Origin: Polyangia bacterium
GTDB lineage: Bacteria; Myxococcota_A; Polyangia; Polyangiales; Sandaracinaceae
DNA length: 41,940 nucleotides
Assembly (NCBI GenBank): GCA_030426845.1
Contig: JAUHXR010000040.1
Span: 1 to 41,940 of the forward strand
Direction of reading: 5' to 3'
Shown here: positions 4,921-26,630 of the stretch, in pieces
Position numbering within the stretch: the stretch's first letter is position 1
Layout: every line of letters begins with the position of its first letter
Notes under the pieces: generated by a model
The model's input: only the letters and a program-made list of their open reading frames with translations
Told to the model about the DNA's origin: nothing
Database searches by the model: none
Made by a program: the position numbers and the translations under genes

Positions 4921-6000
4921 ATGACCGAGCCCTCGCACCTCCAGTTCGTCGTCATCGAGACGACTCGCCGATGCAACCTACGTTGCATCCACTGCGCGGT
5001 GAGCGAGGAGAACAACGACGGTACCTACGCCTACGAAGACCTGCCATTCGAGAGCTTCGAGAGATTGCTGCCCACGCTCCGCGAGCACAAGCCCGAGGTG
5101 CAGCTGAGCGGTCACGGCGAGACCCTGCTCCACCCGCGGTTCGAGGAGATGCTCGAGCAGACGCTCCTCGCGGGCTGCCGCGTGCGCATCCAGACCAACG
5201 GCACGATGCTCACCCCGCGGGTCATCGACATCCTCGTGCGCCACGGCGCGGAGCTGGTGGTCGTCTCGCTCGACGGGGCGACCGCGGAGACCTTCGAGGG
5301 GATCCGGCGCCGCGCGAAGCTCTCCAAGGTCCTCGACAACCTCGAGGCGCTCGTCGAGGCCAAACGCGAGGCCGGAGTGGACCTGCCCAACCTCTCGATC
5401 GAGTTCGTGGCGATGCGCCGCAACATCGAGGAGCTGCCGCAGGTGCTCGAGATCGCTGCGCGCCTCGGCGCGAGCGAGTTCGCGATCACCGAGCTGCGCG
5501 AGTACCCGCTCACCCCTGGCCAGACCCTCGCGGGCGACCCGGAGATGCAGCGCTGGGCCGACCTCGCGACCGCGTTCGCGGAGGAGCACGGCATCCAGCT
5601 GCACCTGCCGCCGATCGCGGGCCGCGAGGTCGTCGGGGTCGAAGAGCTGACGATCGATCGCAGCTCGCCGGCCTCCTACCGCGGGCTGCGCAAGACGTGC
5701 CGCGAGCCGTGGGAGCGCGCCTTCGTTCAGTACAACGGCGAGGTCTGGCCGTGCTGCTACATCTGCGAGCCCTTCGGTGACCTCACGCGCAAACCGTTCG
5801 ACGAGATCTGGCACAACGCCCGGTTCAGCGCGCTGCGCACCGCGCTCGCGAGCGATCGCCCGCCGGAGACCTGCGTGCGGTGCCCCGAGTACGGCTGGCA
5901 GCCGATCAACGCGTCCGCCGACGCCGGGAGCTGGCTCGTCACGCCCGACGAGGAGCCGCTGCCGCCGAGCGAGGTCGCGGACGGTCCCCCGCCGCGCTGA
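4921..6000 (+). CDS. Radical SAM/SPASM domain protein in the glycan locus
   Basis: 359 residues. The cluster motif C18-x3-C22-x2-C25 (CNLRCIHC) binds the SAM-cleaving 4Fe-4S cluster; GHGE (about 63-66) and SLDG follow as in radical SAM barrels. The C-terminus has a SPASM-like set of cysteines (about C260, CCYIC at 278-282, CVRC at 318-321) that would hold one or two auxiliary Fe-S clusters. SPASM proteins modify peptides, but related enzymes act on sugars or other small molecules. No precursor peptide is visible beside it, and both neighbours are glycan or dioxygenase genes, so a sugar or lipid-linked substrate is possible. The frame is open far upstream, but this ATG fits the domain start. 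TAGCCT ends 7 nt before it, with no Shine-Dalgarno site, suggesting a leaderless transcript. Confidence 0.88.
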   Translation: MTEPSHLQFVVIETTRRCNLRCIHCAVSEENNDGTYAYEDLPFESFERLLPTLREHKPEVQLSGHGETLLHPRFEEMLEQTLLAGCRVRIQTNGTMLTPRVIDILVRHGAELVVVSLDGATAETFEGIRRRAKLSKVLDNLEALVEAKREAGVDLPNLSIEFVAMRRNIEELPQVLEIAARLGASEFAITELREYPLTPGQTLAGDPEMQRWADLATAFAEEHGIQLHLPPIAGREVVGVEELTIDRSSPASYRGLRKTCREPWERAFVQYNGEVWPCCYICEPFGDLTRKPFDEIWHNARFSALRTALASDRPPETCVRCPEYGWQPINASADAGSWLVTPDEEPLPPSEVADGPPPR

Positions 6001-22798: not shown

Positions 22799-23308
22799 TC
22801 AGGCCGCGCCGAAGCGGCGCCCGAGCTGGGCGCAGATCGCCTCGAGCTCGCGCTGATCGACCTCGTCGAACGCGGCGAGATGATCGCTGTCGACGTCGAG
22901 CACCGCGAGCAGCCGCCCGTCCGGCGTGAGCACGGGCACGACGATCTCGCTGCGGGTCGTGCTCGAACAGGCGATGTGGTCGGCGAAGGCCTCGACGTCC
23001 GGGACGAGCTGGGTCCGCCGGGTACGGGCGGCCGCGCCGCAGACGCCGCGCGTGAACGCGATGCGGAGGCAGCCGTGGCCGCCCTGGTAGGGCCCGATGA
23101 CCAGCACGTCCTCGCCGGCCGCGTCGCGGAGCGCGCGGTAGAAGCCGGTCCAGTGGAAGCGCTCGAACGCGTGGTGGAGCTCGCACGCGACCGTCGCCAT
23201 CGCGGCCACCCAGTCGTCCTCGCCCTCGAGGAGCGCGTCGATCGCGCCGCGCACCTCGCGGTAGCGCGCGGCCCGGTCCTCGGGGGCGTCCGTCGCGTCG
23301 AGGGCCAT
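22799..23308 (-). CDS. msrC: Free methionine-(R)-sulfoxide reductase (GAF domain)
   Basis: 169 residues, a single GAF domain. The three cysteines of the fRMsr active site are present: C80 (GGHGCLRIAF), C90 (RGVCGAA) and C114 (DHIACSS). Their spacing (10 and 24) equals that of Escherichia coli MsrC (C84, C94, C118). SEIVVPVLTPDGRLLAVLDVDSD is the usual GAF strand pair. The enzyme reduces free L-methionine-(R)-sulfoxide in the cytoplasm. Its ATG shares a base with the stop of the upstream lipoprotein gene (TGATG), so it is translated by coupling with an envelope protein, an unusual partner. Confidence 0.93.
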   Translation of the reverse strand: MALDATDAPEDRAARYREVRGAIDALLEGEDDWVAAMATVACELHHAFERFHWTGFYRALRDAAGEDVLVIGPYQGGHGCLRIAFTRGVCGAAARTRRTQLVPDVEAFADHIACSSTTRSEIVVPVLTPDGRLLAVLDVDSDHLAAFDEVDQRELEAICAQLGRRFGAA

Positions 23309-24777
23309 CAGAACGTGGGGTCGTTCTGGGTGAGGTAGAAGCCGGTCGTCAGCCCGGGCCGGTGGAGCAGCTCCACGTCACAGCCCGTCGTCTCGCCAGC
23401 CGCGTCGACGTGCACCGTCACGTCGGCGACCCGCCACATCGTGCCGATCGCGGTGTTGCCGTTGGGGCCGCGGAAGTTGTTGACCACGTCCGGTCGCTCG
23501 CCGAAGGTCGCCACGCGGCGGCCTCCGCAATAGACATTGACAACGGGCTGAGCGGTCCCGCCGGTGAAGTTCTGGACCATGACGCGGAACGTCTCGCCGT
23601 CGCGCGGGTTGTCGACGTTGATGTTCTCGGGCAGGCCGGAGCGCCCGGGCGACAGGTTGTTGTCGATGTCGAGCCGCGGGTTCGGGCAGACGCCGAGCAG
23701 CGCGCGGAAGCGGTCGCCGTTGGGACCCTGCTCGCACTGGGCGAGCGGCGAGTCCGCGTAGCCCCAGTCCGCGCGGCTCACCGGCCCGCCGGTCACCGGG
23801 TGCGCCGCCTGCCGGACCTCGGCCTCGCAGTCGTGCCAGCCGCAGGACGCCTCGGGCAAGGCGTCGAACGCGGTGCCGCCGCTCGCGTACCACGGGGTCG
23901 TGTCGTCGGGGCGGTGGAGGAACAGGTCGAGATCCTCCGACTCGCTCTCGGGGTAGCACATCTCCACCCGCAGCCCGGGGCCCGCGACGTGGACGACCCA
24001 GGCGCAGGAGAGCACCTCGCCGCCGGGCACGGTCACCGACAGGGTGACGCGGTAGTCCCCGCTCAGACGCGGCGTGAAGGTCGCCCGCTCGCTCGCCGCG
24101 CCGGTCAGGGTGAAGCTCTCGAGGCGGGGCGCGAGCCGATCGCAGGGCCCGCCCTCGACCGACCAGCGAAAGCCCTCGGCCGGTCCCGCGTAGAACGCGC
24201 GCCCGTCGAGCAGGTAGGGCTCGAAAGGCGCGCCGTCCGGAACGCGCGGATCGCCGGGGCTCGGGCAGTCGATCATGCAGATACGGTCGGCCGAGCACCC
24301 GTTGCAGAGGTCGTCGCGGCCGGTGCACACGGACTCGTCTGGTTGCACGCCTCCTTGACACGGGCCCCACCCGCCGGCCACGCCGCAGACCTGCTGGCCG
24401 TCCTGGCACGCGCCCACCCTGCGGCGCCCGGGCGGCCCCGCGAAGCAGTCCTGCACCGCGCCCGGCTCGCACGCGCAGCCCTCGTCGACCTGCCCGTCGC
24501 AGTCGTCGTCGTCGCCGTCGCCGCAGACCTCGTCCCCGAGGCAGCCGTCCTCGACCGGGACGCAGCCGCCGTCCGGGATCGGCCCCGCGTCCGGTCGGCC
24601 TCCGTCGCCGCCTCCGTCCAGCCCACCGTCGGGCGCCTCGCCGGCGTCCGGCCCCGCGTCGCGCCCGCCGTCCATCCCCGAGCCCGGATCGAGCCCGTCG
24701 AGCGAGGTCCGCGCGCCGCAGCCGGCGGCGAGCGAGAGGAGCAAGCAGGCGAGTCGAGTCCGAACCGAGGCGCGCAC
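23308..24777 (-). CDS. Lipoprotein with DAGP linker and MopE-like metal motif
   Basis: 489 residues from the GTG at 24,777. Signal MRASVRTRLACLLLSLAAGC with lipobox AAGC, then an Asp/Gly/Pro-rich linker (DGGRDAGPDAGEAPDGGLDG). CGDGDDDDCDGQVDEGCAC resembles the Asp/Cys motifs found in MopE-like proteins and may bind calcium. The rest is a beta-rich, Cys-containing region with PKD-like strands (YRVTLSVTVPGGEVLSCAWVV) and ESEDLDLFLHRP, a pattern I associate with myxobacterial surface lipoproteins. The start is supported by TACCTT ending 7 nt upstream, although no ribosome site exists. It is translationally coupled to msrC. Confidence 0.8.
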   Translation of the reverse strand: MRASVRTRLACLLLSLAAGCGARTSLDGLDPGSGMDGGRDAGPDAGEAPDGGLDGGGDGGRPDAGPIPDGGCVPVEDGCLGDEVCGDGDDDDCDGQVDEGCACEPGAVQDCFAGPPGRRRVGACQDGQQVCGVAGGWGPCQGGVQPDESVCTGRDDLCNGCSADRICMIDCPSPGDPRVPDGAPFEPYLLDGRAFYAGPAEGFRWSVEGGPCDRLAPRLESFTLTGAASERATFTPRLSGDYRVTLSVTVPGGEVLSCAWVVHVAGPGLRVEMCYPESESEDLDLFLHRPDDTTPWYASGGTAFDALPEASCGWHDCEAEVRQAAHPVTGGPVSRADWGYADSPLAQCEQGPNGDRFRALLGVCPNPRLDIDNNLSPGRSGLPENINVDNPRDGETFRVMVQNFTGGTAQPVVNVYCGGRRVATFGERPDVVNNFRGPNGNTAIGTMWRVADVTVHVDAAGETTGCDVELLHRPGLTTGFYLTQNDPTF

Positions 24778-24944: not shown

Positions 24945-25313
24945 ATGTCCAAGCTCACCGCCTGCTCCGAGTGCTCCGGATTCCTCCCGCCTGCCGCGTC
25001 CGCTTGCCCGCACTGCGGGGGCCGCGTGGCACGGTCCACCCCCCTCCCGAAGCCCCTTCGCGCCGCGCTCGCGATCGGCGCGGGCGGCCTCCTCGCGATG
25101 ACGCTGTCGGCCTGCTACGGCGGCGGCGTCGACTTCCCGCGTGACTCCGGTCCGATGTGCACCGACAACGACGGCGACGGCTACTGCGTCATCGACGGCG
25201 ACTGCGACGACGCGAACTTCGACATCCACCCGTTCGCCGCCGACCCGCTCGGCGACGGGATCGATCAGAACTGCGACATGGTCGACGGCGTCGCGGGCGA
25301 CGCGGGCCCGTAG
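24945..25313 (+). CDS. Zinc-ribbon protein with membrane segment and MopE-like C-terminus, candidate radical SAM substrate
   Basis: 122 residues. An N-terminal zinc ribbon (CSECSGFLPPAASACPHCGG) is followed by one hydrophobic segment (ALAIGAGGLLAMTLSAC) that ends like a lipobox. The C-terminal part reads DNDGDGYCVIDGDCDDANFD, then GDGIDQNCDMVDG, the Asp/Cys pattern of MopE-type repeats, and ends in GDAGP, the linker motif of nearby lipoproteins. A cytoplasmic zinc ribbon, a membrane segment and an extracytoplasmic Ca/Cys motif in one small protein is an unusual order. The ATG at 24,945 has GAGG upstream and begins the zinc ribbon directly; a TTG at 24,927 is less likely. The radical SAM gene starts 33 bp downstream. 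Confidence 0.75.
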   Translation: MSKLTACSECSGFLPPAASACPHCGGRVARSTPLPKPLRAALAIGAGGLLAMTLSACYGGGVDFPRDSGPMCTDNDGDGYCVIDGDCDDANFDIHPFAADPLGDGIDQNCDMVDGVAGDAGP

Positions 25314-25346
25314 CCCGGCTTCCCGTCACCGCGTACGCTCACCGGC

Positions 25347-26630
25347 GTGACCGACCTCCCTCGCGACGACTCGGGGCGGCTGCGACGCCGCCTCGACGTG
25401 CTCCGCGCCGACTTCCACCCGCGGTACGTGGTGTGGGAGCTGACGCTGCGCTGCGACCACGCGTGCACCCACTGCGGGTCGCGCGCAGGCGCGGCGCGCG
25501 AGACGGAGCTGTCCACCCGCGAGGCGCTCCGCGTGGTCGACGAGCTCGCCGAGCTCGGCACCGGCGAGGTCGTCCTGATCGGCGGCGAGGCCTACCTCCA
25601 CGACGGGTTCCTCGACGTGATCCGCGCGCTGCGGCGCAAGCGCATCACCCCGATCATGACGACCGGGGGGCGCGGGGTGACCCGCGAGCTCGCGCACGCG
25701 ATGGCGGACGCAGGGCTCGCGCGCGTGTCCGTCAGCATCGACGGGCTGCGCGAGACCCACGACGCGATGCGCGCGCGCCGCGGCTCGTTCGACGACGCGC
25801 TCGCCGCGCTCGAGCACGTGGCCGAGGCGGCGATGGTGCCGATGGCGAACACCAACCTGAACCGCTTCAACCAGGCGGATCTCGAGCCGCTGTACGAGGT
25901 CCTCGCGCAGCGCGGGGTGCGCGCGTGGCAGGTGCAGCTCACCGCCCCGCTCGGCCGCGCCGCGGACCGGCCCGAGATGCTCCTGCAGCCGTACGATCTG
26001 CTGCAGCTCGTCCCGCGGATCGCGGCGGTCAAGGAGCGCGGCCTCGCGCGTGGGCTCCTGATGATGCCGGGCAACAACCTCGGCTACTTCGGGCCCGAGG
26101 AGGGCCTGCTCCGCTCGCAGCGGCCCGAAGACGGCGACCACTGGGGCGGGTGCCAGGCGGGGCGCTTCGTCATGGGCATCGAGTCGGACGGGGCGGTGAA
26201 GGGCTGCCCGTCGCTCCAGACCAAGGCCTACGTCGGCGGGCACGCGCCGGCGCGCTCCATCCGCTCGATCTGGGAGGGCTCGGACGAGCTCGCGTTCACG
26301 CGGTCCCGGACCCGCGACGATCTGTGGGGCTACTGCGCGGGCTGCGCGTTCGCGGAGCCCTGCCTCGGCGGCTGCTCGTTCACCGCCCACGCCTTCTTCG
26401 GCCGCCCCGGCAACAACCCGTACTGCCACTTCCGCGCGCGCGACTTCGCCCGGCGCGGCCTGCGCGAGCGGCTGGTCCCCGCCGATCCCGCCGACGGGGA
26501 CCCCTTCGACCACGGGCTGTTCACGCTCGAGGTCGAGCCGCTCGACGCGCCCGAGCCGCCGGCGCCGGAGCGTGAGGCCCTCGTCCAGATCGGGCGGCGG
26601 CCGGCCCGCATGATCCACGGCCGCGGCTGA
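25347..26630 (+). CDS. Radical SAM/SPASM peptide-maturase-like enzyme
   Basis: 427 residues. Cluster motif C36-x3-C40-x2-C43 (CDHACTHC), GGE at about 77-79, and SIDG later in the barrel. The SPASM region has cysteines at about 269 (GGCQAGRF), 287 (KGCPS), 330-343 (CAGCAFAEPCLGGC) and NPYCHF, enough for two auxiliary Fe-S clusters. This is typical of enzymes that modify ribosomal peptides or proteins and of quinohemoprotein or sulfatase maturases. The Cys-rich protein encoded 33 bp upstream is the obvious candidate partner. The GTG start is preceded by TACGCT at 7 nt and has no ribosome site. It is not closely similar by eye to the radical SAM gene at 4,921. Confidence 0.9.
   Translation: MTDLPRDDSGRLRRRLDVLRADFHPRYVVWELTLRCDHACTHCGSRAGAARETELSTREALRVVDELAELGTGEVVLIGGEAYLHDGFLDVIRALRRKRITPIMTTGGRGVTRELAHAMADAGLARVSVSIDGLRETHDAMRARRGSFDDALAALEHVAEAAMVPMANTNLNRFNQADLEPLYEVLAQRGVRAWQVQLTAPLGRAADRPEMLLQPYDLLQLVPRIAAVKERGLARGLLMMPGNNLGYFGPEEGLLRSQRPEDGDHWGGCQAGRFVMGIESDGAVKGCPSLQTKAYVGGHAPARSIRSIWEGSDELAFTRSRTRDDLWGYCAGCAFAEPCLGGCSFTAHAFFGRPGNNPYCHFRARDFARRGLRERLVPADPADGDPFDHGLFTLEVEPLDAPEPPAPEREALVQIGRRPARMIHGRG

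Follow-up and report, generated by a model that had tools for sequence, protein, structure and literature searches.

The window, the whole stretch of 41,940 nt that was analysed, contains a pair of genes lying in one reading frame on a common strand and separated by 33 bp: a small ORF (24945-25313, +, ATG start, 122 aa) followed by an enzyme ORF (25347-26630, +, GTG start, 427 aa), as given in a preliminary description of this DNA. The small protein, here predicted to be the substrate of the enzyme, starts with a zinc ribbon (C7xxC10…C21PxC24, residues 7-24; 24963-25016, +) that is invariant in the partner alignment A1, with sub-threshold matches only to Pfam zinc-ribbon models. This is followed by a hydrophobic segment (25062-25115, +) ending in the lipobox L54-S55-A56-C57 and, directly after the lipobox Cys, by Tyr58-Gly59, the conserved element; both features were overlooked in the preliminary description. 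Cys57-Tyr58-Gly59 (25113-25121, +) constitutes an X-Y-G motif and is the predicted splice site, since YG is kept in the partners and PlpXY splices at XYG. The lipobox is of the type found in bacterial lipoproteins; its Cys is at residue 57, later than the approximately 40 residues of a short N-terminal signal, because the zinc ribbon precedes the hydrophobic segment. Lipidation of Cys57 with SPase II cleavage is a prediction from the lipobox. The C-terminal part is an Asp/Cys-rich MopE-like tail (25158-25289, +), with a match to PF11617 (Cu-binding_MopE) at residues 86-111 scoring 29.9 bits against a cut-off of 27. The divergent neighbor of the pair (23308-24777, -) encodes a predicted lipoprotein that also has a MopE-like Asp/Cys motif, and a gene resembling it is likewise divergent beside the pair at another locus (L002). 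A further radical SAM domain (74.8 bits) is encoded at 4954-5436 (+) of the window.

The enzyme matched PF04055 (81.3 bits) and the SPASM model PF13186 (24.6 bits), both above cut-off. In an alignment of 57 enzymes (A2), including TIGR04103 members (among them that of Nostoc) and TIGR03913 members, the radical SAM cluster motif C36xxxC40xxC43 (25452-25475, +) and seven Cys residues of the SPASM domain (269, 287, 330, 333, 339, 343 and 360; 26151-26426, +) were invariant. Substrate-only rows became misaligned when included and were left out of the alignment. The highest-scoring family models were TIGR04103, nif11-class peptide radical SAM maturase 3 (440.3 bits, below its cut-off of 725), and TIGR03913 (392.5 bits, below its cut-off of 591.75), both far ahead of every other family, the third being TIGR04133, rSAM_w_lipo (148.4 bits, below its cut-off of 425). 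A maximum-likelihood tree placed the window enzyme in a clade of 21 (support 100/100), with the TIGR04103 and TIGR03913 clades falling among branches whose members have ribbon-lipoprotein partners, the joining nodes being modestly supported. Pairwise, the window enzyme and the TIGR04103 enzyme of Nostoc C057 shared 47.5% aa identity. Both window proteins were also modelled with AlphaFold as one chain, with the TAG stop read through. In this model the enzyme and the ribbon were confident, and the linker and YG region were disordered (pLDDT under 50). The fold matches of the modelled enzyme were SkfB, PqqE, SuiB and anSME, which is consistent with a peptide-modifying enzyme.

The association of the two genes was followed across genomes. 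Scanning genome contigs yielded 64 loci, of which nearly all were from Myxococcota and many had 60-76% identity to the window enzyme; when 112 genomes from across the phylum were considered, 44 contained the enzyme. Among 240 genomes of the class, a window-type enzyme (defined by a score of at least 500 bits) was present in 46, a strong partner in 43 and both in 41, covering many families (Fisher p = 4e-38, a value that ignores shared ancestry); at E <= 1e-3, a partner was detected in all 46 genomes with a window-type enzyme. The pairing of enzyme and small protein is therefore far beyond chance and is kept throughout Myxococcota, as had been anticipated for a genuine modification system. One genome (G259) has a strong partner (E 1e-14) and no enzyme that could be found, probably owing to a gap, as its assembly is 86% complete. 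The pairing also bears on the reading that the enzyme is an ordinary radical SAM enzyme for small molecules (cofactors) and only happens to adjoin a lipoprotein gene. Haem d1 and haem b models do match the enzyme weakly, at 110-132 bits, but these scores are far under those of the peptide-maturase models and under the cut-offs, and the enzyme co-occurs tightly with the small protein across genomes; this reading was rejected as scarcely credible. The original proposal of a peptide- or protein-modifying SPASM enzyme next to its likely substrate is supported by the same data, with TIGR04103 and TIGR03913 as top models and no grouping with small-molecule families.

The features conserved in the small protein were examined in 79 partner ORFs located beside the enzymes and picked by ribbon and hydrophobic segment alone. 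As YG was ignored in this selection, circularity was avoided. The usual plan is a CxxC…CPxC ribbon, a hydrophobic segment, a Cys and Tyr-Gly, and the partner gene lies upstream, downstream or divergent relative to most enzyme genes. YG was present in 76 of the 79 ORFs, compared with 22 expected after shuffling, and was mostly followed by AP, GP, LP, IP, SP, VP or PP; partners lacking a clean YG carry DYAGG (L047 and L085) or DYGDF (L073 and L076). The X residue preceding YG was most often Cys (47) or Leu (21), then Ala, Asp, Glu, Val, Arg or Met. The lipobox pattern occurred in all 46 CYG partners and in 28 of the 33 others. All 46 CYG partners, which make up the window-type branch, have the lipobox Cys at X. 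Most members of the other branch retain this Cys as well, but their XYG motif is found, in one to five copies, on an acidic, Pro-rich stalk. Separate lipobox Cys and YG are also seen in some Myxococcaceae that belong to the branch of the window (NCGSQMALYGVPC in L034 and L060). Lipidation and YG thus appear to be distinct functions that share one residue in the window type.

The tail behaves differently from this core. It had been suggested that the enzyme crosslinks Cys and Asp residues of the MopE-like tail to give a metal site, by analogy with the modified Trp that binds copper in MopE of Methylococcus. The window tail does score above the PF11617 gathering threshold through its short Asp-rich motif, and a similar tail occurs in 25 of the 46 CYG-type partners, but it was found in just 27 of the 79 same-family partners and is missing (no Pfam match) from L001, one of the closest relatives. 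The CYG-type partners L066, L010 and L016 have tails of approximately 150 residues, in which CGDGxxQxYEQCDDG-like motifs or a stretch of beta-rich appearance occur; this shows that tails are freely exchanged. Nor do the 122 residues of the small protein include any Trp that could serve as a modified copper ligand, so that the analogy with MopE does not hold and nothing points to the tail as the modified part. Crosslinking of the tail was rejected as very improbable, the tail being a variable appendage and not a conserved target.

The conserved X-Tyr-Gly relates the pair to the spliceases, which excise the core of a tyrosine (tyramine, C8H9NO, -135.07 Da) and then rejoin the protein chain. The characterized splicease PlpX belongs to IPR026482, which we take to be the InterPro entry of TIGR04103. 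In 244 Cyanobacteriota genomes, 13 enzymes exceeded the TIGR04103 cut-off, and all 13 loci encode Nif11-type precursors with XYG cores at the end (e.g. IRPLYGVIVWPP...AMYGVV). A plasmid locus of Nostoc C057 likewise combines an enzyme scoring 853 bits on TIGR04103 with an XYG precursor (GSIALYGLPPELF) and has a small ORF in the position of PlpY. PlpX acts on XYG, its native sites being MYG and LYG and its tag PIRPLYGLPI (PMC10533398; PMC11002830). The window pair shares with PlpXY of Pleurocapsa sp. PCC 7319 the wider radical SAM/SPASM family with its Cys sets kept, an enzyme gene adjoining the precursor gene, and the X-Tyr-Gly target (C57-Y58-G59 in the window), often with x-Pro next and in several copies in some precursors. 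It differs in that the PlpXY substrate is a peptide with a Nif11/NHLP leader, whereas the window precursor has no such leader and carries a zinc ribbon and hydrophobic segment instead, being a predicted membrane lipoprotein, and in that X is the lipobox Cys and the enzyme falls short of the TIGR04103 cut-off (440 versus 725 bits). The two groups are bridged by L101, which is in the TIGR04103 clade and adjoins a zinc-ribbon lipoprotein with YG repeats, by L056, which is in a ribbon-lipoprotein clade and adjoins a Nif11-like XYG peptide, and by L054, which is in the TIGR04103 clade and adjoins a precursor with many APMYGMP repeats. This last type of precursor, from a Cyanobacteriota MAG (L054/L096), has ~7 APMYGMP copies with DIDNG-rich spacers and lies beside a TIGR04103-like enzyme.

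TIGR03913, the GDL-motif peptide-associated maturase, is a sister family by score. The substrates beside three of its members (L104, L105 and L108) are DUF1843 peptides of about 55-70 aa and not lipoproteins, with PYG, LYG or PMYM near the N-terminus, which suggests that DUF1843 peptides are splicease-type substrates; as PMYM replaces XYG in some of them, the chemistry of the family may not be uniform. TIGR04133 resembles the window system by name, pairing a radical SAM/SPASM enzyme with a lipoprotein, but the window enzyme scored 148 bits against its cut-off of 425 and the models for its lipoprotein partners were unmatched by the scanned proteins.

In the same three TIGR03913 members the zinc ribbon is fused to the C-terminus of the enzyme, where the lipoprotein-ribbon HMM recognized it with E values of about 5e-6 to 2e-5, and in L106, from a Tropicibacter plasmid, it is at the enzyme N-terminus. 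The L106 operon also holds a second radical SAM gene and genes for a trypsin-like protein and an M23 peptidase. Since the ribbon can be carried by either enzyme or substrate, it probably holds the two together. A search of the window's own genome revealed no PlpY-like gene, although the single short query, the Nostoc ORF in the PlpY position, gives this search limited sensitivity. Together, these sequence comparisons suggest that the substrate ribbon docks the enzyme in the place of PlpY. The ribbon fusions and the lack of a PlpY-like match would also suit a zinc-ribbon protein that is itself a PlpY-like adaptor presenting other proteins to the enzyme, and not the substrate. Against such a role, the partner bears XYG near-universally and in up to five copies, and a second conserved XYG protein was not seen beside the pair, making the adaptor reading improbable.

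The pair is thus probably a splicease-like protein-modification system acting on lipoproteins, the chemistry being deduced from family membership and motif. The principal competing reading is that the enzyme acts on the lipoprotein X-Tyr-Gly by other chemistry, such as a C-C or C-S crosslink of Tyr, oxidation or epimerization. This would fit an enzyme below the TIGR04103 cut-off, the substrates without YG (PMYM) in the TIGR03913 group, the formation of thioethers and C-C bonds by the SPASM enzymes of similar fold SkfB, SuiB and PqqE, and the Cys at X in the window type, which would permit a thioether. Elsewhere in the family, however, X is variable (L, A, D, E, V, R or M) and Tyr-Gly fixed, a pattern that fits tyramine excision and is unlike that of a Cys thioether; other chemistry is accordingly a real but clearly less likely reading.

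Under the splicease-like reading, we infer that Tyr58 in X-Tyr-Gly would be edited by tyramine excision before export, after which the hydrophobic segment would bring the small protein to the membrane, where Cys57 would be lipidated and the ribbon and hydrophobic segment cleaved off. The window type would then show an electrophilic ketoamide at its lipid anchor, and other members may display ketoamides along a disordered surface stalk of X-Y-G-x-P repeats. Ketoamide peptides of the splicease class have been reported as protease inhibitors, as cited in PMC11117315, and it may be guessed that the product acts as a protease inhibitor fixed at its anchor or provides a crosslinking group. A chemistry known from small peptides thus probably acts on surface lipoproteins across the whole phylum. 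A more specific proposal can be offered tentatively, at somewhat less than even confidence: that of a phylum-wide splicease on membrane lipoproteins, whose largest branch edits the lipid-anchor Cys to leave a lipidated Cys-derived alpha-keto-beta-amino acid as the mature N-terminus, and in which the ribbon takes over docking from PlpY and is lost together with the signal segment. If correct, backbone splicing would reach beyond small peptide natural products and would be applied post-translationally to the surface lipoproteins of a major group of bacteria that includes predatory and social forms. Such splicing would need no leader, would be directed by a portable zinc ribbon and would edit the backbone at the lipobox cysteine. 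An electrophilic ketoamide would thereby be exposed on the cell surface, and many uncharacterized myxobacterial small proteins would gain a function.

The preliminary description knew of no system of this form. The enzyme family and X-Y-G recognition are already described, for spliceases; in the literature covered, which did not extend to splicease surveys, no description was found of a lipoprotein substrate that carries a ribbon and has its lipobox Cys in the X position. The survey of Scott et al. 2022, the title of which speaks of “peptides and proteins”, may already include the lipoprotein type, and the novelty of the lipoprotein branch is uncertain.

Other members of the system occur in the window's own genome (G000). 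Three ribbon proteins with CYG or YGxP (L139, C444:40892; L140, C519:48750; L141, C297:15235) were seen with no adjoining enzyme and are possible substrates in trans. A second enzyme of the family (L095, C164:1251-2402), next to which there is a further radical SAM match (C164:246-716), shares 49% identity with the window enzyme; its own ribbon lipoprotein carries PPYGIPP and LYGGAP.
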